Shown here: positions 10,085-62,620 of the stretch, piece after piece
Layout: every line of letters starts with the position of its first letter
How positions within the stretch are numbered: position 1 is the stretch's first letter
Assembly (NCBI GenBank): GCA_019638845.1
Contig: JAHBSZ010000005.1
Location: 62,001-126,000 of the forward strand
From: Salinibacterium sp.
Lineage (GTDB): Bacteria; Actinomycetota; Actinomycetes; Actinomycetales; Microbacteriaceae
Direction: 5' to 3'
DNA: 64,000 bases
Program-made: the position numbers and the translations under genes
The notes under the pieces: model-generated
Told to the model about the DNA's origin: nothing
The model's database searches: none
The model's input: the letters and a program-made list of their open reading frames with translations, nothing else

Positions 10085-10088
10085 GGGC

Positions 10089-46610: not shown

Positions 46611-46639
46611 TTGCTATTTCGGCTGAAGTGTGGATTATT
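46611..46639 (+). promoter_or_regulatory. Candidate promoter of the ABC/oxidoreductase operon
   Basis: TTGCTA (46611-46616), a 17-base spacer and ATTATT (46634-46639), about 70 bases before the first start codon. A second -10-like TATAGC follows nearby. The match is fair and the assignment depends on position. Confidence 0.4.
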
Positions 46640-46708: not shown

Positions 46709-48301
46709 ATGACAGACCGCGCTGAAACACCGTCGGCACAGTCATTGGTGCTCGAAGCACGAGGCGTTACGAAGCACTACGAAGGCGTCACCGCGCTCGA
46801 CCATGCGACCCTCGCCGTGGGCCCGGGCGAGGTTCACGCGCTGCTCGGCGGCAACGGCGCCGGCAAATCCACCCTCATCAGCATCATCTCAGGGGTGACC
46901 AAGCCCGACAGCGGAAAAATCTTACTCGGCGGCGAGGTCATGCCGGCTTCCGGCCCGCTCGCCGCGATCTCCGCGGGCATCTCGACGATCTACCAAGAGC
47001 TCTCGCTCGTCCCCGCACTTTCGGTACTCGACAACATATTCCTCGGCCGCGAGATCAAGCGGAAGACGCTCGGCCTCCCCCTCACATCGGACCGCCGCAG
47101 TATGGAACTTGCAGTGCGTGACCTCGCCGCAGATTTCGGAGTTACCGCAAATGAGCTTCACACTCCGGTCTCCGAGTTCGGTGCTCTCAAAAAGCGTTCC
47201 ATAGAGATCGTTAAGGCTCTCGCCTTCGACCCCAAGGTGCTCATCCTCGACGAGCCGACTTCGGGCCTTGAGGACGCCGAGCGTCAAGTGCTATTCGGTT
47301 ACATGCGCTCCATGCGCGAGCGTGGTGTCTCGCTCGTGTGGGTTACGCACCATCTGGAGGAACTGTTCGGGCTCGCCGACAAGGCGACAGTCTTCAAGGA
47401 TGGCCGTACGGTCGCGACGGTCGCGACGGAGTCGACCTCGATCGACAAGCTCATCACGCTCATGTTCGGCGCCGACCGCGAGGAGTTCGGCGGCGGTGAT
47501 ACCCGCAAGATCGCGCACCTCCAGCCGAGCAGCGAACGCCCTGTGATACTCAGGGCCCGCAATCTCACACGCGGTTCGGTCGTACGCGACATCTCGCTCG
47601 ACGTGCACGAGGGAGAGATCGTCGGGCTCGCCGGGCTCGCAGGCGCGGGACGCACAGAGGTCGTCCGAACGCTCATGGGCCTGGACGCCCTCACTTCCGG
47701 ATCGGTCGAACTCAACGGGCGGCGACTGTCGCTGCGTAACTCGACTGCCGCCTACCGTGCGGGTTTGGCAATGCTCCCGGAGGACCGCAAGCAGCTAGGC
47801 ATACTCGCCGACCTGTCGACGGCGCAGAACATCTCGATCTCGCGCCTCTCCACTGTCACCGCGGCCGGATTCTGGATGAGCCGTCGCAAGGAACTCGCCC
47901 TCGCGGAAAGCTACCGTGGTCAACTCGGCATCAAGACCCCCGATGTCAATGCCCGAATCGGAAACCTGAGCGGTGGCAACCAGCAGAAGGCCATCGTGGC
48001 CCGCTGCCTCAATACCTCCCCCAAACTGCTCATCTTCGACGAGCCGACCCAGGGCATCGACGTGTCGGCGAAGGTCGAAGTGCACGCCCTCGTGCGCGAC
48101 TACGCCGCTAACGGCGGTGCGGCGATCCTCATCGCCTCGGAGATCGAGGAGTTACTCGAACTGAGCCATCGCGTGCTCGTGTTGAAGAAAGGACAGATCG
48201 TCGGCGAAGTACGGAACATCCCGGCTGCAATCGAGGCTGGCGAGTTCGCCCGCATCAAGTCGGAAGTTCTCACCCTGAGCGCGGCGGGACAAGCCTCATG
48301 A
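46709..48301 (+). CDS. Sugar ABC transporter ATP-binding protein (RbsA/MglA type)
   Basis: A 530-residue protein with two fused ABC domains. The first has Walker A GGNGAGKST, Q-loop TIYQELSLV and Walker B LILDEPTSGLE. The second has an imperfect P-loop, GLAGAGRTE, plus LSGGNQQKAIVAR and LIFDEPTQGID, as usual in this family. It energises import through the two downstream permeases. It starts the operon, with AAAGGAG upstream, and overlaps the first permease by 4 bases. The substrate class is ribose-type sugars or polyols, by family. Confidence 0.95.
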   Translation: MTDRAETPSAQSLVLEARGVTKHYEGVTALDHATLAVGPGEVHALLGGNGAGKSTLISIISGVTKPDSGKILLGGEVMPASGPLAAISAGISTIYQELSLVPALSVLDNIFLGREIKRKTLGLPLTSDRRSMELAVRDLAADFGVTANELHTPVSEFGALKKRSIEIVKALAFDPKVLILDEPTSGLEDAERQVLFGYMRSMRERGVSLVWVTHHLEELFGLADKATVFKDGRTVATVATESTSIDKLITLMFGADREEFGGGDTRKIAHLQPSSERPVILRARNLTRGSVVRDISLDVHEGEIVGLAGLAGAGRTEVVRTLMGLDALTSGSVELNGRRLSLRNSTAAYRAGLAMLPEDRKQLGILADLSTAQNISISRLSTVTAAGFWMSRRKELALAESYRGQLGIKTPDVNARIGNLSGGNQQKAIVARCLNTSPKLLIFDEPTQGIDVSAKVEVHALVRDYAANGGAAILIASEIEELLELSHRVLVLKKGQIVGEVRNIPAAIEAGEFARIKSEVLTLSAAGQAS

Positions 48302-49359
48302 AATCCTCATCCCCCCTTGCCAGGATCATGGCGATCCGCGGCATGCCCATGACACTCGTGCTCATCCTGACTGTCGTGATCTTTCAGGTGCTCAATCCGG
48401 TGTTCCTCGACGGCAAGACGGTCGGCAATTACATCACTAACGGCATCCCGATCATGCTCATCACGCTCGGTGTCGCGATTGTAATCATCGGCGGCGGAAT
48501 CGACCTCTCGGTCGGGACAGTCGCGGGCCTCAGCGCGGGAACTACGATGTTCACACTCGTCCAGGGCGCACCGCTCGTTGCCGGCATCGCTGTCGGCTGC
48601 GGGACCGGTCTTCTGTTCGGTCTCATCAACGGTTTCCTCGTCGCCTACATGCGAATCAACGACTTCATCGTGACTCTGGCCACGTTGAACATCGCCGCCG
48701 GCCTGCTCGTGGTGCTTTCCCAGGTGCAGCCGCTGCAGGGTGTGAGCGTACCGGGATTCGCTGAGCTCACAAAGGGGGACCTGTTCGGCATCCCGACCTC
48801 GTTCTTCATCGCAGGAGCGCTGTTTGTCATTGCGCAGATCATGCTCGCTAAGACGATCATTGGGCGCCGCCTCTACGCTGTGGGTATCTCGAGCCAAGCC
48901 TCGAACGTCGCTGGCGTTAGCGTGCCTCACCTCCGTCTCTTCACTTTCGCCGCATCCGGACTGCTGGCCGGCGTCGCGGGCGTGCTGCTCGCCTCGCGCC
49001 TCGGTGCGGTGCAGGCCTTCCTCGGTATCGGGTACGAGTTCATCGCCATCGCGGGCGCGGTCATCGGTGGTATCAGCCTCGCAGGGGGCGGCGGAAGCGT
49101 CTGGGCCGCCTTTGTCGGAGGGCTATTTCTTGCGACACTGCAACAGGGACTGCGACTAAACAACGTCGACCCCGTCTACTTCAGCATCGTTACCGCGCTT
49201 GCCATCGTCTTTGGTGTGGTGTTCGAGCGCCAGGTGCGCCGGGTCATCCTCCGAGCCGCGCTACATCGAACCGCATTGTTCTCCACCGACCAACCACGGG
49301 CCACCGAGGATGAGTCTGTGGTCGCCAGTTCCGAGGGGAGCAATAACAATGACAAGTAA
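48298..49359 (+). CDS. Sugar ABC transporter permease 1 (RbsC type)
   Basis: A 353-residue protein with about ten TM helices. It has the BPD_transp_2 motif VIIGGGIDLSVGTVAGLSAG, FIVTLATLNIAAGL, and the GVSVPHLRLFTFAASGLLAGVAG loop that contacts the ATPase. The C-terminus is a 35-residue polar tail. It overlaps the ATPase gene (ATGA) and the second permease by 11 bases. Two non-identical permeases imply a heterodimeric channel, as in the YtfT/YjfF and LsrC/LsrD importers. Confidence 0.95.
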   Translation: MKSSSPLARIMAIRGMPMTLVLILTVVIFQVLNPVFLDGKTVGNYITNGIPIMLITLGVAIVIIGGGIDLSVGTVAGLSAGTTMFTLVQGAPLVAGIAVGCGTGLLFGLINGFLVAYMRINDFIVTLATLNIAAGLLVVLSQVQPLQGVSVPGFAELTKGDLFGIPTSFFIAGALFVIAQIMLAKTIIGRRLYAVGISSQASNVAGVSVPHLRLFTFAASGLLAGVAGVLLASRLGAVQAFLGIGYEFIAIAGAVIGGISLAGGGGSVWAAFVGGLFLATLQQGLRLNNVDPVYFSIVTALAIVFGVVFERQVRRVILRAALHRTALFSTDQPRATEDESVVASSEGSNNNDK

Positions 49360-50383
49360 GCCCCGGTCTGCCACGGAGACGATCCGCAACCTCTGGGAAC
49401 GACTGCTTGTCGACCCCACACTGGGCGTGATCTCGCTCCTGCTGATCTTCGCGCTCATCGCTGCCTTCGCTCTCCCTGTCTTCTACGCAGGCAACAACAT
49501 CTACAACCTAGTCGGCAGCAGCATCACGGTCATGATTCTCTCCATCGGGATGACCGTCGTACTTATCTCCGGGGGCATCGACCTCTCCGTTGGCGCTGTC
49601 ATGGCACTATGCGCGGGAGTCGCTGCGACGGTCCTCAAGATGGGTGCCCCTTTGTTCGTAGCGTTCGTCTGTGCGATCCTCGTCGGCATCGCGGCGGGCT
49701 TGCTCAACGGACTTCTCGTAACCAGGGTCGGCCTTCCCGACTTCATCGCGACCCTCGCGATGTTGGGGTTCGCGAGCGGCGTGCTGTACATAGCGACTCA
49801 GGGCGTTCCGATTATCGGATACATGACGAGCGAGTACTACATCGTTGGCGGGCTCGACCCCCTTGTCGGCCCAGTGACCTTCCCGATCCTCGTGGCGGTA
49901 GTGCTCGCGCTCATCGTGGGGTGGGTCCTCAGCCGTACGAAGCTGGGCACCCACTTCTTCGCGGTAGGCAGCAACGCCGTCGCCTCCCGCCAGTCGGGCA
50001 TCCCGGTCCGGTGGGTCAAGACGCAGGCGTACATGCTGAGCGGCACCTGCGCGGCGGTCGCTGGCATCATCCTCGCGGGCCGCAATAACAACGTTCCCGC
50101 CGACCTCGGCACCGGCTACGAAATCCAGGCCATCTCAGCAGCGATCATCGGCGGCGCATCCCTCATGGGCGGTCGCGGCCGGGTGCTTGGCGCAGTGCTT
50201 GGCGCACTGACCCTCGCCCTCGCGATCAACATCATCAACCTAGCGGGGGTGCCTTCGAGCTTTCAGAAAATCGTGATCGGCGTCATCCTCATCCTCGCCG
50301 TCATTGCCAACTACCTGAGCGAACTCGCCCGGGGCGCGACCCAGCGCCGAAGGGCCAAACGACTCTCAAGCATCGACGCTTGA
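49349..50383 (+). CDS. Sugar ABC transporter permease 2 (RbsC type)
   Basis: A 344-residue permease from ATG 49349, with GAGGGGAG 9 bases upstream and an 11-base overlap with permease 1. It has TVVLISGGIDLSVGAVMALCAG, LPDFIATLAMLGFASG and SGIPVRWVKTQAYMLSGTCAAVAG. It is related to permease 1 in the conserved blocks but clearly distinct, so a heterodimer is likely. A hairpin at 50403-50426 separates it from the binding-protein gene. Confidence 0.95.
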   Translation: MTSKPRSATETIRNLWERLLVDPTLGVISLLLIFALIAAFALPVFYAGNNIYNLVGSSITVMILSIGMTVVLISGGIDLSVGAVMALCAGVAATVLKMGAPLFVAFVCAILVGIAAGLLNGLLVTRVGLPDFIATLAMLGFASGVLYIATQGVPIIGYMTSEYYIVGGLDPLVGPVTFPILVAVVLALIVGWVLSRTKLGTHFFAVGSNAVASRQSGIPVRWVKTQAYMLSGTCAAVAGIILAGRNNNVPADLGTGYEIQAISAAIIGGASLMGGRGRVLGAVLGALTLALAINIINLAGVPSSFQKIVIGVILILAVIANYLSELARGATQRRRAKRLSSIDA

Positions 50384-50402
50384 GTGCACCAAGAAACCGA
50401 AA

Positions 50403-50426
50403 GCGCCAGCGTTTCAGCGCTGGCGC
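50403..50426 (+). other. Intercistronic stem-loop between permease 2 and the binding protein
   Basis: GCGCCAGC (50403-50410) pairs with GCTGGCGC (50419-50426), extendable by one G-C pair, around a 6-base loop. There is no T run. It lies in the 62-base gap before the binding-protein gene. It may protect mRNA from decay or cause partial termination to adjust expression. Confidence 0.65.
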
Positions 50427-50445
50427 CCATCGAGAGGAAATGCAG

Positions 50446-51627
50446 ATGTCTCAACAGAATGCTAGTCCCACAACGATGACGATCACACGACCCTGGCGTC
50501 GCGCGATCGCGCTGGGTGCCAGCGCCGTGCTCCTGGCTGGCTTGGCTGCGTGTTCCACAGTGACTGGATCCACCGATACCGGCACCGGCACCGGCACCGC
50601 CGGTTCCACGAACTGTGGCAGTGCCGATGAGCAAGCGGCAATCACCGCTGCCGTCAACGGCCGCACGCTGAAAGTCGGCTTCACCCCGCCAATCCTTTCC
50701 GAGTTCTACACTCAGGTCGAGAAGGCCGCCTTCAACCGGATGAATGAACTCGAGACCTGCTACGGCATCAAGTGGGAGTGGTCCCGTCAGGGCGCCCTCA
50801 ATGACGCTCACTCGGGCGTGGAGGCCGTCGGTATCGTCGAGAACTTCATCTCGAACGGGTTCGACGCCGTCTTCGTGTGCTCCGCAGCACCGCACGCCAC
50901 GATGCAGGAGATCTTCAAGGCAGGCGAGGCCGCCGGAGTAAATTTCTACCAGTTCAACTCGACGGAAGAGCTCGAGAATCCGTCGCAGGCCACTGATCCC
51001 ACCGCCGGCCTCTCCACGATCTCGAACATTGGCTACGACGACCGCTGGCAGTCGGGTTACATCGCGGGCCAGTACCTCGCGAAGGCGCTGAGCGGTAAGG
51101 GTCAGATCATCCAGATCCTCGGCCCGTCGGGCTCCGACTGGACCAAGTTGCGCCAGCAAGGCTTCGAGGCCGCGATCGGCGAGTTCCCGGGCATGACCAT
51201 CGTCGGTTCCGCCGACGGCGGCTACGTTCGCGACAAGGGCCTGACTGCCGCGCAGGATCTCTTGACCAAGTTCCCAGACATCGCAGCCATCTACGGTGAG
51301 AACGAAGACATGGCGTTGGGTGCCTCGCAAGCGATCGATCTCGCCGGCCTCAAGCATTGGGACGGTACCTCGGGAATCATCACAATCGGCGCTGACGGTC
51401 TGATCTCAGGTATGGACTCGATCCGCCAGGGCAAGCTCACCGCCACCGTCGATGTCAACTCCGTCGACATGGGCACGACGATGGTCAACACGCTGTTCCA
51501 GCACGAGATCCTCGGCATGACCGTCGCACAGTTCATCTCCGTCCCCACGGTCGTCGTCGACAAGACGAATGTGGACTGGGCCGAGGCGAAGATCGCCGCG
51601 TCGCAGGCCGGACCGGGCAAGTACTAA
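50446..51627 (+). CDS. Substrate-binding lipoprotein of the ABC importer
   Basis: A 393-residue periplasmic-binding-type protein from ATG 50446 (GAGAGG 8 bases upstream; ATG 50440 is also possible). The signal has lipobox LAAC (C36), followed by a Thr/Gly linker. The fold resembles the RbsB/Peripla_BP_4 family, with LKVGFTPPILSEFY and IGADGLISGMDSIRQG. Homology to galactofuranose- and ribose-type binders is general. The ligand cannot be named. It is placed last in the transport block. Confidence 0.93.
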   Translation: MSQQNASPTTMTITRPWRRAIALGASAVLLAGLAACSTVTGSTDTGTGTGTAGSTNCGSADEQAAITAAVNGRTLKVGFTPPILSEFYTQVEKAAFNRMNELETCYGIKWEWSRQGALNDAHSGVEAVGIVENFISNGFDAVFVCSAAPHATMQEIFKAGEAAGVNFYQFNSTEELENPSQATDPTAGLSTISNIGYDDRWQSGYIAGQYLAKALSGKGQIIQILGPSGSDWTKLRQQGFEAAIGEFPGMTIVGSADGGYVRDKGLTAAQDLLTKFPDIAAIYGENEDMALGASQAIDLAGLKHWDGTSGIITIGADGLISGMDSIRQGKLTATVDVNSVDMGTTMVNTLFQHEILGMTVAQFISVPTVVVDKTNVDWAEAKIAASQAGPGKY

Positions 51628-51641
51628 CAACCAGCACCATC

Positions 51642-51671
51642 GGGGTGCCCCGCCAGCCGGCGGGGCACCCC
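51642..51671 (+). other. Strong intercistronic stem-loop between binding protein and GMC gene
   Basis: A 13-bp perfect stem (51642-51654 with 51659-51671) closes a 4-base AGCC loop. It begins 15 bases after the binding-protein stop. The absence of a T run and the continuing operon suggest mRNA stabilisation or partial termination, giving more transporter than enzyme. Confidence 0.7.
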
Positions 51672-51721
51672 ACCCCACCAGAGCACCGTCGAAGAGACGC
51701 GGATGAAAGGACTCGATTCTC

Positions 51722-53407
51722 ATGGTGAAAAAGAATGACCCAGTGGACGTCGTGATCGTCGGGCTAGGAGCCGGAGGAGGTCCGGCCGCAAAGGTACTGT
51801 CGGAGGCTGGTTACTCTGTAGTCGGCTTCGACAAGGGCCCTTGGCTACGCAATAGCGAGCACTACTCGGGCGACGAGCTCAAGTTCCAGAACCGCAGCTA
51901 TCTGTGGCCGGACGTCGATCTCATGCCACGTACAGTGCGCAGCGACGAGACCACCGAGGGCCGCATCTTCAACTTTTCCCCCGTGCCTTCCGCGGTCGGC
52001 GGCGGAACTACCCACATGGCGGGCTGGACCCCCCGCCCTCGCCCTTCCGACTTCATCATGCAGTCGCTGCACGGCGACATCGAGGGCGCGAGCCTCGCTG
52101 ACTGGCCCTATCGCTATGAGCACCTCGAGCCCTACCTCACCAAGGTCGAGTGGAGCTACGGCATCTCGGGCCTTGATGGTGCCGAGGTGGGTGCCGGGTT
52201 CCGGTCCAAGCGCTATCCGAGCGGCCCCCTGGAGCCCACTAAGTTCGGCGAGAAGTTCTACGAGGGATGCCGAAAGCTCGGCATCAACGCGATGCCACTC
52301 CCGATGAGTCACCTCACCGAGAGAAACGAGCTCGGTCGCAAGGCCGTCAACCGCACGAGCTTCTGGAACCAGTACGGCGACCCGACCGAGACGCGCTCGA
52401 CGGTCGCTACGACGTACATCCCCGAGGCTCTCTCCACCGGTAATTTCGAGGTGCGAGCCGACTCCTTCGTCAAGGAAGTGACCGTCGACCGCGACGGTAA
52501 GGCGACGGGCGTGGTGTATATCGCGCCCGACGGCTCGGAGCACGAACAGCAGGCGAGGGTCGTCATCCTCGCTCTCGGCGCCATCGAATCTTCGCGCCTC
52601 ATGCTGCTATCGAAGTCGCCGCGTTTCCCCGACGGGCTTGCCAACGACTCAGGCCTCGTAGGTAAGAACGCGACGTTCCACGAATACCTATTCGCCGTCG
52701 GCCTCTTCGACCGCGAAGTGTCGCCTGCCCTCAACGGGTTCACGGGCAACTACCAGAGCGGCGGGTCGATGCACTTCTACGAGACTGACCCTGACCGAGG
52801 CCATATCGGTGGCGGCATCATTGCCACCACACAGATCGGCCAGCCCATCAACCCGATCCTGCCCGGAAAACCCGTGTGGGGCGAAGCGGCCAAGGACGCG
52901 GACCGCGACTACTTCCTGCACTCAATGAAGATCGGAATGATCCTGCAGGATCTTCCGCAGGAGACGAATCGCGTCGACCTCGACCCAACTGTCAAGGACC
53001 GCTGGGGAATGCCCGTCGCGCGCATCACCAACAAGCCACATGCCAACGACACAGCAATGAGCAAGTGGCAGATCGACAAGAATGTGGAAATCTTAGAGGC
53101 CGCCGGAGCGGTGCGCACCATGCCGGTCTATTTGGGCAAGGAGTTCACGGGGAACGCCTGCCACCAACACGGAACGGTGCGCATGGGGACCGACCCGAAC
53201 AGGTCCGTACTGAACGAGTGGGCTCAAGCTCATTCGGTGGACAACCTTTTTGTACTCGACGGTTCTGGCTTCGCCACGGCAATGGGGGTCAACCCGACGC
53301 TCACGATCATGGCGCACTCGTGGCGTGCAGCCGACTACATCGCAAACACCTATCTCAAGGGACGGAGCGAGCGCCTCGTGCTCGACCCGATCTCTGCCTC
53401 GAAGTAA
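51722..53407 (+). CDS. GMC family FAD oxidoreductase, gluconate-2-dehydrogenase-like
   Basis: A 561-residue flavoenzyme. The N-terminus has the FAD motif VDVVIVGLGAGGGPAAKVL. The GMC signature region includes PSAVGGGTTHMAGW and RYEHLEPYLTKVEW. The C-terminal catalytic His lies in NACHQHGT (H481/H483), with N524 in NPTLT as partner. It should oxidise an alcohol, pyranose or sugar acid. No signal peptide is present. The next gene encodes a subunit-3-like partner 15 bases on, so the two probably form a complex. The electron acceptor is unknown. Confidence 0.92.
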   Translation: MVKKNDPVDVVIVGLGAGGGPAAKVLSEAGYSVVGFDKGPWLRNSEHYSGDELKFQNRSYLWPDVDLMPRTVRSDETTEGRIFNFSPVPSAVGGGTTHMAGWTPRPRPSDFIMQSLHGDIEGASLADWPYRYEHLEPYLTKVEWSYGISGLDGAEVGAGFRSKRYPSGPLEPTKFGEKFYEGCRKLGINAMPLPMSHLTERNELGRKAVNRTSFWNQYGDPTETRSTVATTYIPEALSTGNFEVRADSFVKEVTVDRDGKATGVVYIAPDGSEHEQQARVVILALGAIESSRLMLLSKSPRFPDGLANDSGLVGKNATFHEYLFAVGLFDREVSPALNGFTGNYQSGGSMHFYETDPDRGHIGGGIIATTQIGQPINPILPGKPVWGEAAKDADRDYFLHSMKIGMILQDLPQETNRVDLDPTVKDRWGMPVARITNKPHANDTAMSKWQIDKNVEILEAAGAVRTMPVYLGKEFTGNACHQHGTVRMGTDPNRSVLNEWAQAHSVDNLFVLDGSGFATAMGVNPTLTIMAHSWRAADYIANTYLKGRSERLVLDPISASK

Positions 53408-53422
53408 GGAAGGAGAACCACC

Positions 53423-54127
53423 ATGGCCTCAAAATCCGAATGGCAAAAGCTCGATCTCGTGATCGACCCCGACTCGAATGAAAAGTTGTTCTTCAGCGAC
53501 CACGAATGGGACACCATCGAGGCGGCTGCGGCGCGGATCATCCCGACGGACCAGGATCCTGGTGCCCGCGAGGCACGAGTGATCGTCTTCATCGACAGGT
53601 ACCTGTCGGGGATCGACTACCACTACGCGGCTGCAGACGGCAGCGGCTTCCTCCGCATGGAAGGCGAGGAGGCACGGGCCGCGCGCGCACGAACCAACGA
53701 CTTCCAGCGAATGTACCGCGAGGGAGTGGGTGAGCTCGATGCGGTAGCAATGCGCCACGGCGCCGCCGACTTCGTGAGCGCCGACGAGGCGACGCAGGAC
53801 AAGATCCTCGTCGAGGTCAGCGGTGCGCCGAAGCCGAGCCACGTACGCCTCGACGAGCATGAGGTGTTCTACTCGCGATTGCAAGGGAACACCGACACGG
53901 GCAAGAGTTTCTTCGACACTCTCGCTTTCCATGTGCGGCAAGGGTTCTACGCGGATCCAGTCTACGGCGGCAACAAGGACCAGGTCGGCTGGAAGGTGAT
54001 CGGGTTCCCGGGGCCGAGTTCGCTCAAGGACACCATGGACGGCACCTATACGACGGCGCCGTATTTCGTGCAGGAGTACGACTGGCGCGACCTGCTGCTC
54101 TCCTACGACGGGCCAGAAACAGCCTAA
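53423..54127 (+). CDS. Gluconate 2-dehydrogenase subunit 3-like protein
   Basis: A 234-residue protein with the PF13618-type core FFSDHEWDTIEAAAARIIPTD and GAREARVIVFIDRYL, and a C-terminal FVRQGFYADPVYGGN-like segment (here HVRQGFYADPVYGGN). Classical gamma subunits have a Tat signal; this one has none and begins with a short hydrophilic leader. It probably partners the GMC oxidoreductase in the cytoplasm. GGAGAA precedes the ATG. No cytochrome c subunit is nearby. Confidence 0.88.
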   Translation: MASKSEWQKLDLVIDPDSNEKLFFSDHEWDTIEAAAARIIPTDQDPGAREARVIVFIDRYLSGIDYHYAAADGSGFLRMEGEEARAARARTNDFQRMYREGVGELDAVAMRHGAADFVSADEATQDKILVEVSGAPKPSHVRLDEHEVFYSRLQGNTDTGKSFFDTLAFHVRQGFYADPVYGGNKDQVGWKVIGFPGPSSLKDTMDGTYTTAPYFVQEYDWRDLLLSYDGPETA

Positions 54128-54188
54128 CTACCAAATCAACGCGGACCTACTCCGCGTCGTGACCACCTCCAGAAAGGAAGAAGAATCA

Positions 54189-54917
54189 ATGTCGAACTTC
54201 GAAGAAAAACTCAACAAATGGGTCGACCGCACCTACCGGTACACCCCAAACAAGATCGACCTGTCCCGCACCGTCGTGCACATGCTCGACGTGCAGAACC
54301 TGTGCCTCGACAAGCGCGGCGCCGACTATGTGCAGAGCGTGGGCGGTGCCCCTTCGGGCGAAGAAACTCTCGTTCAGGCCAAGAAGGTCCTCGACGCCGC
54401 ACGTGCCAAAGGCGTGAAGGTCAACTGGTCGATGTGGGGAATGGACCCGAACGGCTACGATATCGGCCTGTGGGGCGAGAAGTACCCCGCCTGGAAGAAC
54501 GCGGATTCCCCGTTCAATCACGGTACGTTTGACGGCGCCCTGTGCGACGGCTTTGTGCCCGAGGAAGGCGAGGCGGTACTCCGAAAGCACCGCAACAGCA
54601 GCTTCTTCGAAAGCCCGTTCAACTCGTGGCTCAAGCAGGACGACTGCAAGTATCTCGTGATCGTCGGGTCATCGACCGGCAACTGTGTGCCGACGACGGC
54701 CCGTGACGGTTTCGAGCAAGGCTACAAGGTCATCGTTGTCGCCGACTCCGGCACTGCGATTCCGCTCAACTCGCACGGCCGCAACCCCGAGTACGACCAC
54801 GAGGTCCCCGAAGGATACGGACAGTACTGGGAGGGCCTGCGAAACATGCAGGCTCAGTACGCCGACGTGATGTCGACGCGCGAGTTCCTCGAGTTGATGG
54901 AGAACTCCTCTAAATAG
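54189..54917 (+). CDS. Isochorismatase-like cysteine hydrolase
   Basis: A 252-residue protein from ATG 54189, with an AAAGGAAG site upstream. The catalytic triad is visible: D34 in HMLDVQN, K133 in LRKHRNSSF and C166 in GSSTGNCVPTTARDG. A cis-peptide VGSST strand precedes the Cys. The family contains amidases such as nicotinamidase, N-carbamoylsarcosine amidohydrolase and ureidoacrylate hydrolase. The N-terminal extension of about 25 residues and the WGMDPNGYD loop are unusual. Its substrate is presumably an intermediate of the operon pathway. Confidence 0.88.
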   Translation: MSNFEEKLNKWVDRTYRYTPNKIDLSRTVVHMLDVQNLCLDKRGADYVQSVGGAPSGEETLVQAKKVLDAARAKGVKVNWSMWGMDPNGYDIGLWGEKYPAWKNADSPFNHGTFDGALCDGFVPEEGEAVLRKHRNSSFFESPFNSWLKQDDCKYLVIVGSSTGNCVPTTARDGFEQGYKVIVVADSGTAIPLNSHGRNPEYDHEVPEGYGQYWEGLRNMQAQYADVMSTREFLELMENSSK

Positions 54918-54925
54918 CACGGGGG

Positions 54926-54957
54926 GCGGGCGGGGGTGCGTAGACGCTCCCGCCCGC
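54926..54957 (+). other. Intercistronic stem-loop before the aldo/keto reductase gene
   Basis: GCGGGCGGG (54926-54934) pairs with CCCGCCCGC (54949-54957) around a 14-base loop. It is the third hairpin in gaps of this operon, 8 bases after the hydrolase stop and 20 bases before the next ATG. There is no T run. Confidence 0.6.
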
Positions 54958-54977
54958 GCCACGGTTATGGAGACCAC

Positions 54978-55973
54978 ATGACAACGCCACCAGCTACCCG
55001 CACCTTCGGACGCGTCGGGGTCGACGTGACCCTAGCGGGTCTGGGCACCGTCGCCCTAGGCAACATGGGCAGGATCGTTCCCACCACCGACTCCCGTGCC
55101 GTGATCGACGCAGCATGGGATGGCGGCGTGCGGCTCTTTGACACCGCTCCGATGTATGGCCACGGCCTCGCGGAGTACCGTCTCGCCGAGCAACTCCGCG
55201 ATCACCCGCGAGACTCCTACTTCCTGGTCAACAAGGTCGGCCGCACCCTGCGTCCTTCAGCCGACCCTGGCGACACCTCCCCCTGGCTCGCGACCCCGCC
55301 GATGGCGATGGGATTCGACTACAGCTACGACGGCGTGTTGCGCCAAGTGGAGGCGAGTCTGCAGCGGATGGGCACCGACTACTTCGACGCGCTACTCGTG
55401 CACGATACCGATCGCTTCACGCACGGCGACGCGCAACCCGAACGCTTCCGGGAGGCCGTCGATGGCGCGTTCCAAGCCTTGCTGCGATTGCGCGACGAGG
55501 GCGTGACCCGGAGCATTGGTATCGGCGTCAACGAGTCTGACGTGTGCCTCGCGGCTCTTGAGGCTGTCGATATCGACTGCATGCTCATCGCCGGCACTTA
55601 CAATTTGCTTTCCACTACCGCGCTTGACGAGTTACTCCCGGAGTGCGCCCGTCGCGGCGTAGCGGTCATCAACGGTCGGGCCTTCGGGTCAGGCATCCTC
55701 GCCACGGGCACCACGAAAGACGCCCGCTTCAACTACGCGACAGCACCTACCGACATCGTCGACCGGGTGCGCCGCATCGAGTTCCTCTGCGACGAGTTCG
55801 GAGTCGAGCTCGGCGCAGTTGCAATTCGTTTCGCAGGCTCGCACCCGGCGATCGCGAACGTCTGTCTCGGCGCGCGCACCGCCGAGCAACAGGAACGGAA
55901 CCTCCGCTGGATGGGCGCCGTTATCCCCGACGAACTCTGGCTCGCGCTCGCCGAGCTCGACGACACGCCGTAA
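54978..55973 (+). CDS. Aldo/keto reductase, aldose or pyridoxal dehydrogenase type
   Basis: A 331-residue protein from ATG 54978 (GGAG 5 bases upstream). The AKR tetrad is present: Asp in RLFDTAP, Tyr in MYGHGLAE, Lys in LVNKVGR and His in ALLVHDTDRF. It resembles the D-threo-aldose 1-dehydrogenase/L-fucose dehydrogenase and pyridoxal 4-dehydrogenase group, which oxidise cyclic hemiacetals to lactones with NAD. This fits a pathway with the GMC enzyme. Specificity is inferred from the general pattern. Confidence 0.9.
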   Translation: MTTPPATRTFGRVGVDVTLAGLGTVALGNMGRIVPTTDSRAVIDAAWDGGVRLFDTAPMYGHGLAEYRLAEQLRDHPRDSYFLVNKVGRTLRPSADPGDTSPWLATPPMAMGFDYSYDGVLRQVEASLQRMGTDYFDALLVHDTDRFTHGDAQPERFREAVDGAFQALLRLRDEGVTRSIGIGVNESDVCLAALEAVDIDCMLIAGTYNLLSTTALDELLPECARRGVAVINGRAFGSGILATGTTKDARFNYATAPTDIVDRVRRIEFLCDEFGVELGAVAIRFAGSHPAIANVCLGARTAEQQERNLRWMGAVIPDELWLALAELDDTP

Positions 55974-56001
55974 ACACCACCACCAGATACAGGAGATCGA
56001 G

Positions 56002-56400
56002 ATGTTCGAGGAACTGAAAACCATCGCCGCGCATGCAGAGGCCGAGGCGGCAGAAAGGGGACTCGCCGTCGTCGTGAGCATCGTCGATGTACACGGTAAC
56101 CCGGCTCTGCTACACAGGATGACCGGCGCACCCATGCATTCACTCGAGATGGCGTTCCGTAAGGCCTACACTGCCGCGACCTTCGCCGTAGCTACCGAGG
56201 AACTTACGAAAAAGGTCGAGCCGGGCGGACCACTCTTCGGCCTAGCCGTCAACTCCGGTTCGAAGCTCATCGGTTTTGGTGGCGGCGCACCGTTTGTGGT
56301 CTCAAGCGGCGAGCGGTTTGGCCTTGGCATCTCCGGCGGAACCACGGAAGAGGACATCGAGATCATGCGATCGGCAATTGCGAAGCACAACGCCGCCTAG
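56002..56400 (+). CDS. GlcG/HbpS family heme-binding-like protein
   Basis: A 132-residue protein from ATG 56002, with AGGAG 6 bases upstream. It has the GlcG/HbpS pattern: VVVSIVDVHGNPALLHRM, AFRKAYTAATF, the EPGGPLFGLAVN strand and a Gly-rich GGGAPFVV loop. Members bind heme, or sit in glycolate, propanediol and sugar operons with no firm function. It is the last gene of the operon; the converging galM ends 4 bases after. Confidence 0.88.
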   Translation: MFEELKTIAAHAEAEAAERGLAVVVSIVDVHGNPALLHRMTGAPMHSLEMAFRKAYTAATFAVATEELTKKVEPGGPLFGLAVNSGSKLIGFGGGAPFVVSSGERFGLGISGGTTEEDIEIMRSAIAKHNAA

Positions 56401-56404
56401 TGGT

Positions 56405-57397
56405 TTAGCGTACGCCCAGCCGCCACACGGTGCGCTGGGTGTACGCGTCTTGCGGCTGTAGGACAATTGACGGCCAGTCTGGCAGCGAGGGCGAGTCGGG
56501 CACCCGATGTGGCTCAAGACAGATCCCCTTGCCGGGGGAATGTTGCGCCCCGCGACGTCCGATTGATTCCGCAATGCGATTGCCGGTGTAGACCTGCAGC
56601 GTGGGCTCCGTGGTTGAGATCTCGAGCGTCCTGCCGCTCCTCGGATCCCACAAGCGCGCCACCGGACCGACAGCACGATCGAGCACGTAGGTGCTGTCAA
56701 TGCCGGGCCAAGGCTCACTACCCCCCAATGGCAAGTCGTCTCCGATGCGGCGCTCGGTGCGGAAGTCATATGGGGTACCCGCCACAGGCACGACTCCGCC
56801 ACGAGGCAGCAGCCTGTCGTCGGCGCCGAGAATAGCGCTGGCCTCGATGGCGAGCACATGGTCCACTATCGATCCGCTCGCGTCCCCGCTCAGGTTGATG
56901 TAGGAGTGGTTGACCAGATTCACCGGGGTCGGGGCATCCGTCGTCGCATGGAATTGGAAATCGACCTCATCCGACTCATTTAGTCGGTACGTAGATGCGA
57001 TCGAGAGGGTTCCGGGATAGCCCTCCTCACCCGCCGGACTCACGTAGCGGAAAGTCACGCTTTGCGCGTCCTCAGCCTGCTCGACGCTCCATTCGACGCG
57101 ATCGAGAGCGCGCGTGGGACCACCGTGGAGATGGGTCGACCCCTCGTTGGGCGTAACACGGAAGTCAAGTCCACCACCCACGAAGCGCGCGTCAGCGAGG
57201 CGACCTGCGACGCGACCGACCGTCGCCCCGAAATACGGGCCGGGATCGTTGCGGTACTCCTGCTCGGAAGTATGTCCGAGAACTACGTTGCCGGGCACGC
57301 CGTCGCGATCCCGGGCCATCAACTCGACCAGTCGGGCACCGAAGGTCGAGAGCAGCACTGATGTACCACGGTCATTGCTCAGAGCGACGAGGGCCAT
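56405..57397 (-). CDS. galM: Aldose 1-epimerase
   Basis: A 330-residue GalM-fold protein. The catalytic His is in VNLVNHSYINLSG, another His is in STHLHGG, and the catalytic Glu is in ICLEPHRVPD. It interconverts alpha and beta anomers of aldoses such as glucose, galactose or xylose. It starts 3 bases after the ROK gene stop, so the two are co-transcribed away from the oxidoreductase-xylAB unit. Confidence 0.95.
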   Translation of the reverse strand: MALVALSNDRGTSVLLSTFGARLVELMARDRDGVPGNVVLGHTSEQEYRNDPGPYFGATVGRVAGRLADARFVGGGLDFRVTPNEGSTHLHGGPTRALDRVEWSVEQAEDAQSVTFRYVSPAGEEGYPGTLSIASTYRLNESDEVDFQFHATTDAPTPVNLVNHSYINLSGDASGSIVDHVLAIEASAILGADDRLLPRGGVVPVAGTPYDFRTERRIGDDLPLGGSEPWPGIDSTYVLDRAVGPVARLWDPRSGRTLEISTTEPTLQVYTGNRIAESIGRRGAQHSPGKGICLEPHRVPDSPSLPDWPSIVLQPQDAYTQRTVWRLGVR

Positions 57398-57400
57398 CAG

Positions 57401-58672
57401 CTACATCTCGACCGAAGCGACTGGAAGCAGCGATGACTCTGCGACGACGTCGTAACCGGTCGGATCGCGCAGAAGTGCACCGAAGGCTAGTTCGGCGGCA
57501 CCCACTAACAGAATATTGTCGCGCAACTCTGGGCGCCTTATCTTCACTGCCGCATACTGCGGAGCGAGGGACTCTTGGGCGACAACGCGACGCAACCGCT
57601 CGGGTTCCGCATCAAGCAGGGATCCGAGGAATCCACCGAGCACGATGAGGTCCGGATTGAAAATCGTGACCATGCTGCCGAGTGCTGTTCCGAGGGCACG
57701 CACCTGGCGGTCGATCTCATCCTGCGCCTCGGGCGACCGGGGGGCTGCGAGGACCTCGTCAAGCCTCAGGACGTCGCGACCTTCAAGACCGAGGCTACGG
57801 AGCAAATCGTCGCGGCTTACCTCCGATTCCAGCGTGCCCTGAAGTCCTGCGGAGTCGCGCTTCCCTCCGCTGCGAATCCGGAAGTGTCCAAGCTCACCCG
57901 CAAAGCCCATCGCCCCCTTCAGCATGATCCCACCCGACACGACGCCACCACCGATACCGCTCGCTCCGCCGTTGAGGTACAGCGTGCTGCCAACGTGGGC
58001 CCCGCCGCCGAACACGGTCTCGGCAAGCACACCGAGGTGGGCGTCGTTAGCTGCCCAGACGGGCAGGCCGGTCTCCTCAGCGAGAACGCGCGCGAGTGGC
58101 TCCTGCCGCCAACCGAGGTGGGGCGCAAGAGCGACGGACCCGTCAATATCGTCAGTTAGACCGGGGACGGCGACACCGATACCCACGATCCGCGCGTCCG
58201 CAGGGAGCATCGCCTGAATCCCCTCAATGATCGCCTTAGTGATCTTAACCGCACGCCGCATGGTCGGGGCTTCATCGGTCTCGTAGCGGATAGTGCGCTG
58301 CAGCTGGCCGCCTAGGCTCACAACACCGACCGTGATGGCATCGATCTCCGGATTGACGGCGATTGCGAGGATCCGACCGCTGGGGTGCAGCGACATGCTG
58401 GGGCGGCCCACAGATTTCTTGGAGCCCTCATCGCTGCCGTTGGCCTCGACGACAAGCCCACGATCGATGAGCTCGTTGACGAGGATCGTGATGGTCGACC
58501 TGTTAAGCCCGCTGGCCGCAGCCAGGTCGCTGCGATAGAGCGGACCGTCGTGGTGAATGCGAGTGAGAATCGTGGACAGGTTGTGCACGCGGAGACTATC
58601 GAGGTTCGAGCCGAGTGTCTTACGGAAGCGATCGGGGACAGTTCCGTCTACTGCTTCGTCGGATATCGACAC
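57401..58672 (-). CDS. ROK family transcriptional regulator (XylR/NagC type)
   Basis: A 423-residue protein from GTG 58672, with GGAG 5 bases upstream; the longer open frame to 58738 has no better start. The N-terminal winged HTH (about 20-80) includes HDGPLYRSDLAAASGLNRSTITILVNEL. The ROK domain has VGIGVAVPGL, NDAHLGVLAE, the GELGHFRI strand and LIVLGGFLG. The Cys ligands of the usual CxCGxxGCxE zinc motif are replaced (AGLQGTLE). It probably represses the divergent xyl genes in the absence of sugar. Confidence 0.9.
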   Translation of the reverse strand: MSISDEAVDGTVPDRFRKTLGSNLDSLRVHNLSTILTRIHHDGPLYRSDLAAASGLNRSTITILVNELIDRGLVVEANGSDEGSKKSVGRPSMSLHPSGRILAIAVNPEIDAITVGVVSLGGQLQRTIRYETDEAPTMRRAVKITKAIIEGIQAMLPADARIVGIGVAVPGLTDDIDGSVALAPHLGWRQEPLARVLAEETGLPVWAANDAHLGVLAETVFGGGAHVGSTLYLNGGASGIGGGVVSGGIMLKGAMGFAGELGHFRIRSGGKRDSAGLQGTLESEVSRDDLLRSLGLEGRDVLRLDEVLAAPRSPEAQDEIDRQVRALGTALGSMVTIFNPDLIVLGGFLGSLLDAEPERLRRVVAQESLAPQYAAVKIRRPELRDNILLVGAAELAFGALLRDPTGYDVVAESSLLPVASVEM

Positions 58673-58756
58673 CTTTGCTCCGCATCCCTGTGAACAATTC
58701 CACCCTGCACTGGCAGCCTTCGCAGAAAACAATACCATCCGATATTTATTTCATGC

Positions 58757-58793: not shown

Positions 58794-59870
58794 ATGGCCA
58801 ACAACGTCCCGCCCTCCACAGGTACGCTCATTCGAGCAGCGATCGTAGGATATGGGCTGTCTGGTCGTGTTTTTCACTCCCCGTTCCTCGAGTCGGACAG
58901 TAACTTTGAACTCGCGGCAATTGTTACCGGAGATGACGCTAGGCGCGCTCAGGCCTCGGGGGAGCATCGAAATGCGCGTATTTATCAAAGCTTTGAGGAA
59001 TTAGAGTCATCAGGCGAGTCGTTCGACCTTATTGTGTTGGCCGGACCACCTGACACCCATCGCGAACTCGCTCTCAAAGCACTCGCAATGGGGGCCGCGG
59101 TCATTGTCGACAAGCCCTTCGTCGCCTCGACCGAGGATGCCCAGCTCCTCATCGACGCCGCAACCGTCGCCGGTCGACCGCTCATGGTCTTCCACAACCG
59201 TCGCTGGGACGGCGACTTCGTCACCATTCAGTCACTGATTCGCAGTGGGCGTCTTGGTGATGTGTTCCACTTCGAATCAAATTTCGAGCACTGGTCACCG
59301 ACAACCACCCCAGGTTGGAAAGACCAACTCCCCGCCTCGCGCGCCGGGGGTGTTGCGTGGGATCTTGGTAGCCACCTCGTCGACCAAGCTCTGGTGCTCT
59401 TCGGCCCGACCGCATCGGTGACATCACGGTTGCGCACGGTCCGCGAGGGCGGCGGCAATGATGACCACGCCGAAATCCACATAGTCCACGAATCCGGCGT
59501 CGTCTCCCGACTGCTGATGAGTCGGTTGAGTGACGGCCATGGACCGCGTTTCCGCTTGCTCGGCACCCGTGGATCCTTCATCTCGTTCGGCCTTGACCCG
59601 CAAGAACCCGCGCTCGATGCAGGCGCACTGCCCACCGACGAGGGATTCGGGACGGTCTCGCCGCAGAACTACGGCACCCTCACCGAGCACACCGCGGGCG
59701 GCAGCATCACATCACAAATCCCCACAGAACCGGGCGACTACGCCGAGTTCTACCGGAGGGTCGCTGCTGCCGTCCGTGGCACGGGGCCGGAGCCGGTCCG
59801 CCCCGAGGAGGCGCTCGACGTTGTCGCCGTGCTCGAGCTGGCCACCCGCACTCCCACAAACGCTAACTAG
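58794..59870 (+). CDS. Gfo/Idh/MocA family oxidoreductase
   Basis: A 358-residue NAD(P)-dependent oxidoreductase. It has the nucleotide-binding GYGLSGRVFHSPFL, the cofactor/catalytic loop DKPFVASTED, and the GGVAWDLGSHLVDQAL helix with a conserved His for catalysis. It belongs to the YdgJ/YhhX-like group, in which the nucleotide-loop sequence YGLSG is typical. It probably oxidises or reduces a sugar. It is the first gene of the unit with xylA and xylB and is divergent from the ROK regulator. Confidence 0.92.
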   Translation: MANNVPPSTGTLIRAAIVGYGLSGRVFHSPFLESDSNFELAAIVTGDDARRAQASGEHRNARIYQSFEELESSGESFDLIVLAGPPDTHRELALKALAMGAAVIVDKPFVASTEDAQLLIDAATVAGRPLMVFHNRRWDGDFVTIQSLIRSGRLGDVFHFESNFEHWSPTTTPGWKDQLPASRAGGVAWDLGSHLVDQALVLFGPTASVTSRLRTVREGGGNDDHAEIHIVHESGVVSRLLMSRLSDGHGPRFRLLGTRGSFISFGLDPQEPALDAGALPTDEGFGTVSPQNYGTLTEHTAGGSITSQIPTEPGDYAEFYRRVAAAVRGTGPEPVRPEEALDVVAVLELATRTPTNAN

Positions 59871-59924: not shown

Positions 59925-61115
59925 ATGGCACTCACGCCCACCCCCGCCGACAAGTTCTCCTTCGGACTGTGGACGATCGGATACAACGGGGCCGATCCGT
60001 TCGGCGGACCCACTCGTGCGCCGCTCGACGTAGTGCACGCCGTCGAGAAGCTCGCCGAGCTCGGAGCATACGGCCTCACCTTCCACGACGACGACCTGTT
60101 CGCGTTCGGGTCTACCGACGCCGAGCGCCAGAAGCAGATCGACCGCCTCAAGCAGGTTCTCGCCGACACCGGACTGATCATCCCCATGGTGACGACCAAC
60201 CTGTTTAGCGCGCCCGTCTTCAAAGACGGGGGCTTCACATCGAACGACCGCGGCGTACGTCGCTTCGCCATGCGCAAGGCCATGCGTCAACTCGAGCTCG
60301 GAGTCGAGCTCGGCGCGAAGACTTTCGTCATGTGGGGTGGCCGCGAGGGCGCCGAGTATGACGCCGCCAAAGACATCCGCCAGGCCCTTGAGCGCTACCG
60401 CGAAGCTCTCAACGTGTTCGGCGACTACGTGACCGACAAGGGCTACGACATCCGGTTCGCGATCGAGCCCAAGCCCAACGAGCCCCGCGGTGACATCCTG
60501 CTTCCCACGGTCGGTCACGCTATGGCCTTCATCGAGACCCTCGAGCGCCCGGAACTTTTCGGACTCAACCCCGAGGTCGGCCATGAACAGATGGCCGGGC
60601 TGAACTTTGCCGCCGGAATCGCGCAGGCGCTCTACCAGGGCAAGCTCTTCCACATCGACCTGAACGGCCAGCGCGGCATCAAGTACGACCAAGACCTCGT
60701 CTTCGGGCACGGCGACCTGCACAACGCCTTCGCGCTTGTCGACCTGCTCGAGAACGGTGGCCCGCAGGGTGGTCGCTCCTACGACGGGCCGCGTCACTTC
60801 GACTACAAGCCGAGCCGCACGGAGGACGAGACCGGTGTCTGGGATTCCGCAGCCGCGAACATGCGCACCTATCTGTTCCTCAAGGAGCGGGCCGCCGCGT
60901 TCCGCGCAGATCCCGAGGTACAGGAGGCTCTCGTCGCTTCGCGCGTTCCCGAACTGTCGGTGCCGACGCTCGCCGAGGGGGAGACCTACGACGACCTGCT
61001 CGCCGACCGTGCATCGTTCGAGGACTTCGACCACCAGGCCTACTTCGACGGCAAGGGTTTCGGGTTCGTGCGTCTGCAGCAGCTCGCCACCGAGCACCTG
61101 CTCGGCGCACGCTGA
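59925..61115 (+). CDS. xylA: Xylose isomerase
   Basis: A 396-residue class I xylose isomerase. Active-site segments are H54 in [18 protein letters not shown] with the Glu and Lys metal and substrate ligands, [11 protein letters not shown], and HIDLNGQRG. The closing [10 protein letters not shown] is also present. It converts D-xylose to D-xylulose. AAGGAAA precedes the ATG. It is followed by xylB after a 125-base gap that has strong inverted repeats. Confidence 0.98.
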
Positions 61116-61134: not shown

Positions 61135-61221
61135 TAACTCAGGACAAACGGCCTGAGTCGGTATGCCCTCGCCCGGATTTGCTGGGCGTCGGGAACCAAC
61201 CCGCGCCCGTCTCCTGAGTTA
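61135..61221. repeat. Inverted repeats in the xylA-xylB gap
   Basis: TAACTCAGGA (61135-61144) and TCCTGAGTTA (61212-61221) are perfect 10-base inverted copies. A further CCTGAGT at 61152-61158 pairs with the 5' copy as ACTCAGG-N8-CCTGAGT. The set could be operator half sites or mutually exclusive mRNA hairpins ahead of xylB; the downstream copy ends 8 bases before the AAAGG ribosome-binding site. Confidence 0.6.
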
Positions 61222-61240
61222 CCAACACGAAAGGTCACCG

Positions 61241-62620
61241 ATGACGCTCGTCGCCGGGGTCGACTCGTCGACCCAGTCCTGCAAGGTCGTCATCGTGGAT
61301 GCCGCAACCGGGGCCACTGTGCGCTCGGGCCGCGCTCCGCACCCCGCCGGCACCGAGGTCGACCCCGAGGCCTGGTGGGTGGCGCTCCACACCGCCATCA
61401 CCGACGCCGGCGGGCTCGACGACGTGGCGGCGATCTCCGTGGGCGGACAGCAGCACGGCATGGTCGTGCTCGACCATGCCGGTCGCGTTATCAGGCCCGC
61501 CCTACTGTGGAACGACACTCGGTCGGCGGCTGCAGCCGAGCAGCTCGCCACCGAGATCCCCGACATCGTCGACCGCACAGGCTCGCGACCCGTCGCGAGC
61601 TTCACGTCGACGAAGCTGCGCTGGCTACGCGACGCCGAGCCGGTCAACGCCGAGAATGTCGCGGCAGTCGCCCTCCCCCACGACTGGCTGACCTGGCGCC
61701 TGCGCGGGTTCGGGCCAGAGAATCCGCGACTCGACGCCCTCACCACGGATCGCTCGGATGCGAGCGGCACGGGCTACTGGAATCCCACGACCGGCGACTA
61801 CGACCTCGACGTGCTCGGGCTCGCCCTCGGGCATCAGGCAATCGTGCCGCGGGTGCTCGGCCCGGGCGACCGTGCCGGGCTCGCCGGTGAGCTCATCGTC
61901 GGCGTCGGCGCTGGCGACAACGCGGGCGCCGCGCTCGGCTTGGGCGCGGTGGCCGGAGATGTCGTCGTGTCGATCGGCACGAGCGGCACCGTGTTCGCGG
62001 TTACTGAATCCCCGACCCGCGACGCCTCGGGTACAGTCGCCGGATTCGCCGACGCGAGCGGGTTGTTCCTCCCCCTCGTCGCCACCCTCAACGCCGCGCG
62101 CGTACTCGACTCGATCGCTGGGCTTCTCGGAGTTGACCATTCCGGCCTCGGCGACCTTGCTCGTGAGGCGGAGCCCGGCGCCGACGGACTCGTACTGAAG
62201 CCCTACTTCGAGGGCGAGCGCACGCCCAATCTTCCGGATGCCACGGCCACCCTCTTCGGGATGACCCTCGCTTCGAGTACCCGCCCGAACCTCGCGCGCG
62301 CAGCGATCGAGGGGCTGCTGTGCGGCCTCGCCGATGGCTTGGACGCTCTTCGCGCACAGGGTGTCGACGCGCGCAGGATCCTACTCATCGGCGGTGCCGC
62401 GCAGAATCCGGCGGTCGCGGCCATCGCCGCGCAGGTCTTCGCGGAGCCTGTGGTGGTTCCGCAGCCGGGAGAGTACGTCGCGCTCGGCGCCGCAGCCCAG
62501 GCCGCGTGGGCCCTCAACGGCGTGCGCCCGACCTGGCTAGTGCCGCTGGCTGCCGAACCTGCGGTCGACTTCCGCAGCGTCATCCGTGAGCAATATCGAC
62601 ATGCAGGACACAGCAGCTAG
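61241..62620 (+). CDS. xylB: Xylulokinase
   Basis: A 459-residue FGGY kinase from ATG 61241 (AAAGG upstream). It has the start [16 protein letters not shown], the [13 protein letters not shown] segment, the catalytic-type [13 protein letters not shown] and the C-terminal [11 protein letters not shown]. It makes xylulose-5-phosphate. It overlaps the converging oxidoreductase gene by 4 bases at the 3' end. The actinobacterial XylB is shorter than the E. coli form. Confidence 0.97.

Follow-up and report, generated by a model that had tools for sequence, protein, structure and literature searches.

A conserved Salinibacterium operon joins a ribose-type importer to a GMC flavoenzyme lacking the [3Fe-4S] cysteine motif and to a RutB-like hydrolase

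Which compound is imported and degraded by an operon that joins a sugar-type transporter to a flavoenzyme and a cysteine hydrolase? This question is raised by nine tightly spaced forward genes at positions 46709–56400 of a 64,000-nucleotide stretch of Salinibacterium sp. DNA (contig JAHBSZ010000005.1; the whole stretch is hereafter called the window). They encode a ribose-type (CUT2) ABC importer, a GMC oxidoreductase with its subunit-3 partner (SU3), an isochorismatase-fold cysteine hydrolase (ISO), an aldo/keto reductase (AKR) and an HbpS/GlcG-like protein (HBP). An earlier, sequence-only reading of the window had proposed that a sugar or polyol is taken up, an alcohol oxidized, and a lactone formed and then hydrolyzed. 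We propose, at a probability of roughly 0.4, that the genes form a self-contained catabolic module in which oxidation by the GMC enzyme is combined with amide cleavage, the substrate being a sugar-like compound whose amide is either present from the start or gained later.

All nine reading frames were open, and their order and place were as the sequence-only reading had described them; in addition, every family named in a Pfam scan of the nine proteins scored over its curated cut-off. On the plus strand, the importer comprises a two-domain ATPase (46709..48301; two ABC_tran stretches in one protein), permease 1 (48298..49359; BPD_transp_2, 123.8 bits), permease 2 (49349..50383, with an in-frame ATG at 49349; BPD_transp_2, 149.4 bits) and a substrate-binding lipoprotein (SBP; 50440..51627, starting at 50440 or 50446; Peripla_BP_4). 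These are followed on the same strand by the GMC flavoenzyme (51722..53407; GMC_oxred_N and GMC_oxred_C), SU3 (53423..54127; Gluconate_2-dh3, 101.8 bits), ISO (54189..54917; Isochorismatase, 81.8 bits), AKR (54978..55973; Aldo_ket_red, 146 bits) and HBP (56002..56400; HbpS-like, 93.5 bits). Start refinement placed the ATPase start at 46709 and not at an earlier GTG at 46628. The ATPase and permease 1 genes overlap, as do those of the two permeases, and the successive gaps from permease 2 onward are 56 (or 62), 94, 15, 61, 60 and 28 bases, with the HBP gene ending 4 bases from a convergent gene for an aldose 1-epimerase (GalM).

With the GMC protein as query, 42 loci were retrieved from genome contigs; L001, L002 and loci under 5.2 kb were left out of the locus table. 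The window and ten loci with a GMC identity of at least 80% (L003–L009, L032, L038, and L043) were defined as type A (n = 11), in which L005 and L103, probably one contig (13050 bases each), and likewise L003 and the contig from G668, were each counted once. SU3, ISO, and a ROK-family regulator were present in all eleven loci, the importer in ten (L003 begins at the GMC gene), HBP in ten, and AKR and a Gfo/Idh/MocA oxidoreductase in eight each; GalM was present in nine and the xylose isomerase gene xylA in seven, or in ten and eight when partial matches of L006 were counted. The gene-order search that the sequence-only reading had called for thus found the same order in other genera, and because the importer, GMC, SU3, ISO and usually the AKR–HBP pair recur in that order, the arrangement is more than a chance one. 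Judged by sequence, the nine-gene set is a genuine, conserved operon. The gene order around the operon varied among type A genera, which indicated that the linkage had survived rearrangement.

The remaining 32 loci (type B in the broad sense) have GMC proteins 60–69% identical to that of the window. Of these, 28 loci, spread over three phyla, keep GMC, SU3 and the hydrolase. ISO was absent from L031, L034, L035 and L040; in L031 and L035 the sequence starts shortly upstream of the GMC gene, and in L040 it stops within that gene. A TRAP transporter guessed from gene lengths beside the Rhodobacter copy (L035) was rejected, as the three genes scanned gave no Pfam family, a CoA-ligase-like match and a menaquinone-type match. 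A DJ-1/PfpI gene, mostly directly after ISO, occurs in all 28 ISO-bearing type B loci and in none of the 11 type A loci. Among these 28 loci, we found an enolase-superfamily dehydratase in 26, a 2-keto-3-deoxygluconate (KDG)-type kinase in 20, a 2-keto-3-deoxy-6-phosphogluconate (KDPG)-type aldolase in 17, DhaK in 9, a lactonase in 18 (13 SMP-30, 5 metallo-beta-lactamase fold), a lipoprotein of the window family in 15, and xylA in none. In type B representatives, Eda (233.3 vs. 156.05 bits) and PfpI (161.9 vs. 139.05 bits) exceeded their cut-offs, as did the Pfam families SGL, Lactamase_B, PfkB, DJ-1_PfpI and MR_MLE, and the dehydratase, kinase, DhaK and N-acyl homoserine lactone lactonase models matched below cut-off. 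These neighbors of the type B loci (lactonase, sugar-acid dehydratase, KDG-type kinase and KDPG aldolase) give good support to sugar or sugar-acid chemistry, and with it to the proposal of sugar or polyol uptake followed by alcohol oxidation.

The type B neighborhoods resemble De Ley–Doudoroff or Entner–Doudoroff-like sugar oxidation: type B shares the lactonase, dehydratase, KDG-type kinase and KDPG aldolase with it, whereas the window operon has none of these. No type A locus was matched by the lactonase, dehydratase, kinase, aldolase or DhaK queries; at the window locus, aldonate dehydratase, KDG kinase and KDPG aldolase were all missing, so that the gene set of an Entner–Doudoroff-like pathway was not found there, and five enolase-superfamily matches lie elsewhere in the window genome. 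The absence of any lactonase family from the nine genes had been noted from the sequence and was confirmed here.

The best NCBIfam match of the hydrolase was RutB (ureidoacrylate amidohydrolase), far short of the equivalog score (66.7 vs. a 377.95-bit cut-off), and its solved relatives were RutB and N-carbamoylsarcosine amidohydrolase. A structure model (mean predicted local distance difference test score, pLDDT, 87.5) was nearest in fold to RutB and also close to BiuH, maleamate amidase and N-carbamoylsarcosine amidohydrolase, with isochorismatases scoring lower. The triad Asp34-Lys133-Cys166 (numbered from the ATG) is intact: in the 36 rows kept after open reading frames of at least 320 amino acids were left out, Asp and Cys were present in all 36 and Lys in 33, with Arg in three Bacillota rows. 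The protein thus shares fold and Asp-Lys-Cys triad with RutB, biuret hydrolase, maleamate amidase and N-carbamoylsarcosine amidase, but it differs from this group in its low identity (about 17–23% in structural matches), in scores far below the RutB and biuret-hydrolase cut-offs, in its own SxGGAP signature, which like a C-terminal QxWE stretch is near-invariant, and in its sugar-gene surroundings. Because the nearest proteins are the amidohydrolases RutB, BiuH and NicF, the triad is intact and 18 of the 28 type B loci carry a separate lactonase, the hydrolase probably cleaves an amide bond, as far as sequence and fold model indicate.

The same observations weakened the suggestion that the cysteine hydrolase opens a lactone. 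In that scheme, which we regard as a rather unlikely alternative, GMC or AKR would convert an aldose to a sugar lactone, and the hydrolase would open this to a plain aldonate. The lactone and aldonate enzymes next to type B operons favor it, as do GalM, which suits an anomer-specific aldose dehydrogenase, the 10 of 28 type B loci without a lactonase within the flanks available, and AKR, whose nearest solved structures are L-galactose dehydrogenases (9w6y, 9.1e-31), which are lactone-forming enzymes. It conflicts with the amidohydrolase-like character of the hydrolase and with the SMP-30 or metallo-beta-lactamase-fold lactonases that stand alongside it; furthermore, aldonate dehydratase, KDG kinase and KDPG aldolase are missing from all 11 type A loci, and the window genome lacks the KDPG aldolase family.

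The GMC protein had its nearest solved relatives in fructose dehydrogenase (1.3e-32, residues 8–544), known as a complex from Gluconobacter, and in glucose dehydrogenase dependent on flavin adenine dinucleotide (FAD; 3.2e-24), and choline oxidases and pyranose oxidases were weaker matches. His98 was conserved in all 49 rows with a residue at that place, and His481 and Asn524 in 48 of 48; the roles of these three residues are presumed from alignment, and His98 aligns with the fructose dehydrogenase His at the probable FAD-linking place. In glucose dehydrogenase, Cys212, 218 and 222 bind a [3Fe-4S] cluster, His105 is a possible attachment site of FAD, and the small subunit, with which Cys213 forms a disulfide, travels as a hitchhiker on twin-arginine translocation (PMC6719666). 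In the proteins studied here, the cysteine loop is replaced by an FWNQYGDP-type stretch, with no Cys in 48 of 50 aligned rows (window included) and one Cys in two. The window SU3 has no twin-Arg pattern, no hydrophobic N-terminus and no Cys in its core; the other 32 SU3 rows have 0–5 Cys and no convincing export signal, and the twin-Arg pattern found in 2 of 33 rows lies in both cases upstream of the likely start Met of an over-long reading frame. No multi-haem cytochrome c gene is among the nine operon genes, the rest of the genome not having been searched. Like FAD fructose dehydrogenase and the Burkholderia cepacia FAD glucose dehydrogenase, the pair joins a homologous GMC catalytic subunit with a His-Asn pair to a Gluconate_2-dh3 small subunit, but the Cys212/213/218/222-type motif, twin-arginine signal and cytochrome c gene of those enzymes are all absent from the window operon. 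With the [3Fe-4S] cysteines, export signal and cytochrome all missing, GMC/SU3 is probably cytosolic and cluster-free.

Another reading is oxidation at C3 of a glycoside, in which GMC would yield a 3-keto glycoside with Gfo/Idh as its partner. Such compounds are formed in levoglucosan, trehalose or C-glycoside routes, and a 49% GMC relative in Mesorhizobium (L046) stands with sugar phosphate isomerase/epimerase, ROK and Gfo/Idh genes, the last of which are also found in 8 of 11 type A loci. However, chains named pyranose oxidase (1.7e-9 and weaker) fell far below fructose dehydrogenase, no solved chain matched by the GMC protein was named glycoside 3-oxidase, and no 3-keto-glycoside lyase or C-deglycosidase candidate was seen among the recurrent neighbors. 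Bacterial glycoside 3-oxidase or C-glycoside clusters share a GMC oxidoreductase in soil bacteria (PMC10646112), but no deglycosidase genes were found here and the pyranose oxidase similarity is weak; we therefore consider this route unlikely.

On pNGR234b of Sinorhizobium fredii NGR234 (L045, 11980–19755), a 61% identical GMC, SU3 and a CUT2 importer are followed downstream by a second GMC, an SDR protein, a tagatose kinase (456.8 vs. a cut-off of 420) and a GatZ-like protein (628.6 vs. 568.8). From this gene content, the GMC/SU3 pair seems to have been reused in different sugar pathways. The NGR234 locus, as a ketose route, together with the FGGY kinase gene beside xylA in the window, would suit a flavoenzyme that turns an arabitol- or xylitol-like polyol into a ketose for phosphorylation by the kinase, but the hydrolase, GalM and the type B lactonases would then be left unexplained, and we hold this to be doubtful. 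A second, distant GMC gene (about 31–34% to the window protein) lies directly upstream of the GMC gene in L013–L019, L022, L025, L033 and L039, and that of L022 has its own Gluconate_2-dh3 gene (27.8 bits). In L042, the GMC gene is assembled as two split reading frames (9986–11598).

We addressed the relationship between the two types by a maximum-likelihood GMC tree of 49 rows, which left out L042, whose gene is in two halves, and the truncated L040. Type A formed one clade (100/100) beside Actinomycetota type B lineages, and the Bacillota and Alphaproteobacteria type B rows fell outside under midpoint rooting, with a long-branch warning among the outer rows. From this position type A looks derived, the root not being established. 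Distances of GMC, SU3, ISO, SBP and ATPase were correlated over 24 loci (Spearman 0.46–0.81; for every pair, none of 1000 permutations reached the observed value) after L072 and L073 (which are second copies of L012 and L018), L001, L002 and L048–L058 had been left out. Across the A/B split, mean identity over the 24 loci with all five genes was 67% for GMC, 57% for SU3, 52% for SBP, 49% for the ATPase and 41% for ISO, and mean ISO identity was 76% within type A and 65% within type B; the hydrolase is therefore the most changed protein at the split. The differences include position 86 (Asp, Asn or His vs. mostly Arg) and position 136 (Asn vs. Phe), and the hydrolase may have changed its substrate there. 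The distribution of the system is patchy: a GMC relative at 1e-120 was found in 11 of 297 genomes of the order (51–100% identity), and the type B hydrolase at 1e-55 in 3 of 394 genomes of the class. Two actinobacterial genomes of just 1.3 and 1.5 Mb also carry the type B hydrolase, so its substrate may be common.

The importer has a double ATPase, PF02653 permeases and a Peripla_BP_4 lipoprotein, as a CUT2 ABC importer should; like the ribose, arabinose, xylose and allose importers, it combines one double ATPase and two permeases with a ribose-binding-type lipoprotein, but the window proteins score under the cut-off of each equivalog listed, the best NCBIfam match of the ATPase being AraG (424.2 bits, below the 689 cut-off). 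The lipoprotein carries an LAAC lipobox by eye, and its structure model (mean pLDDT 83.2) has a CUT2 sugar-binding fold; the fold searches with lipoprotein and hydrolase gave the class of each protein and no ligand. Several ligand-contact positions of the Escherichia coli ribose-binding protein, aligned by eye, are not conserved in the window lipoprotein. In an alignment of 26 type A and B rows, 58 lipoprotein columns were invariant, so that the imported compound is probably of one class. We thought a role as xylose importer unlikely, since a XylF/G/H-like set, also under cut-offs, lies about 5.3–8.5 kb beyond the window end. That region (L071, 7998–12480) encodes the XylF/XylG/XylH-like importer and a second ROK protein (27% to the nearest ROK of the loci). 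A vitamin B6-like substrate, the other suggestion made from the sequence, is very improbable. GMC and AKR enzymes do occur in the known B6 route, but the nearest solved relatives of both proteins here are sugar enzymes, the type B context is one of sugar acids, the importer matched the B6 models poorly (ABC_ATP_B6, 367.1 vs. 670 bits; permease models, 30.5 and 37.5 vs. 400), and the nine genes include no lactonase family that could stand for the pyridoxolactonase.

Beyond HBP, whose solved relatives are 5cx7, 2a2l and 6bws, lie the minus-strand genes for GalM (56405..57397; Aldose_epim, 249.4 bits), which is part of the module and is upstream and co-directional in L006, L032 and L043, and for the ROK regulator (57401..58738; ROK/NagC/Mlc-type matches). 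ROK copies of at least 68% identity were confined to three of the 27 congeners, the same three in which the hydrolase was found when 25 of them were searched for that enzyme; from this coincidence the regulator is probably dedicated to the module. The plus-strand genes that follow encode the Gfo/Idh/MocA oxidoreductase (58794..59870; PRK11579, 232.1 vs. 330 bits), xylose isomerase (xylA, 59925..61115; TIGR02631, 611.6, over the 447 cut-off) and an FGGY kinase (61163..62620; FGGY_N and FGGY_C), by context a xylulokinase. A further Gfo/Idh gene, on the minus strand at about 62617–63741 (L071, 2618–3742), adjoins the kinase gene and resembles levoglucosan dehydrogenase (324.2 vs. 650 bits).

Present in 23 of 27 congeners, xylA is a genus-core gene; it adjoins the module in 8 of the 11 type A loci, and the arrangement differs among them. 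Four congener xylA loci (L104–L107) were compared. In L104, the stretch from the same MFS gene to xylA holds a LacI regulator, a CUT1-type importer, an acetyl xylan esterase (AXE1), a GH43 protein and a GH3 protein that exceeds the beta-xylosidase/arabinosidase cut-off (1258.9 vs. 1050). The corresponding stretch of L107 contains one GH3 protein along with the permease and binding protein of a CUT1-type importer, whereas in L105 and L106 another importer adjoins xylA and this MFS gene is missing. By the gene content of L104 and L107, the module sits in the xyloside-feeder slot of some relatives, hinting that carbon enters via xylose or xylulose in type A.

Two hairpins lie in the gaps of the window operon, one at the importer/enzyme boundary (51628..51721, plus strand, −40.8 kcal/mol) and one before the accessory AKR–HBP pair (54918..54977, plus strand, −38.0 kcal/mol). 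The former was seen in each of the 10 type A loci inspected (z −1.4 to −5.8 vs. mononucleotide shuffles) and the latter in all 8 with AKR (z −0.9 to −5.9); some single loci are unremarkable by z, so that the argument is one of recurrence in place, weakened by the GC-rich gaps. Sequence similarity among the hairpins is low, those of the window have no T tails, and the SU3–ISO gap showed no consistent hairpin. The two hairpins separate importer, core enzymes and AKR–HBP pair, in agreement with the absence of AKR from L005 and L009, and their recurrence makes internal processing or partial termination within the operon likely. A search of common 8–10-base words upstream of the importer, ROK and xylA genes gave no convincing shared operator; the consensus promoter scan gave 0 hits vs. 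2.2 in shuffles, with a promoter-like pair upstream of the ATPase gene by eye only, and the terminator scan gave 12 vs. 6.6 in shuffles, the plus-strand ones all within genes.

In the proposed amide-cleaving module, the lipoprotein and CUT2 importer would take up a small polyhydroxylated sugar-like compound that carries or later acquires the amide. A cytosolic GMC/SU3 enzyme would oxidize one hydroxyl (the anomeric hydroxyl of an aldose being the likeliest, or a ring hydroxyl) and pass the electrons to oxygen or a soluble acceptor without an iron-sulfur relay; the RutB-like hydrolase would then cut the C–N amide bond of the substrate or of the oxidized product. AKR and the HbpS/GlcG protein would be accessory, GalM would interconvert anomers, and the ROK protein would repress the gene set until the substrate comes. 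Carbon would probably enter metabolism through xylose isomerase and xylulokinase in type A, and via lactone, aldonate, 2-keto-3-deoxyaldonate and KDPG-type cleavage in type B.

Several observations count against this proposal. An amidohydrolase fits ordinary sugar oxidation poorly, so the family resemblance may be misleading unless the substrate is an unusual one. Several type B kinase and aldolase matches are weak (35–38% identity), and the permutation test takes no account of common descent among the loci. The window genome (98.5% complete) has no member of the KDPG aldolase family (PF01081), which is present in 8 of 14 control genomes; thus, the type B route is not simply transferable to it. 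In addition, the xylose link is not strict, as L009 has no xylA within 10 kb and G664 carries the module on contig C142 and xylA on C94.

As far as we found, the operon is described nowhere in the literature searched, in which subscription papers were mostly not included, and this agrees with the remark in the sequence-only reading that it knew no characterized pathway with this exact set. Taken together, sugar oxidation is well supported, lactone hydrolysis is weakened and a B6 substrate is unsupported. More tentatively, and with less confidence than in the module itself, we suggest that the operon may represent an undescribed way, present in three phyla, of degrading an amide-bearing or N-linked sugar, built on a soluble, iron-sulfur-free derivative of fructose and glucose dehydrogenases and a RutB-like amidohydrolase; in type A, the hydrolase would have diverged and its product been rerouted from an aldonate pathway to xylose isomerase. 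The lipoprotein and the hydrolase offer direct handles on the substrate, through ligand binding and amide panels. If true, this would mean that sugars are also oxidized by a route that includes amide cleavage, and that a cytosolic branch without the iron-sulfur electron relay exists within the fructose/glucose dehydrogenases, a family known for that relay.

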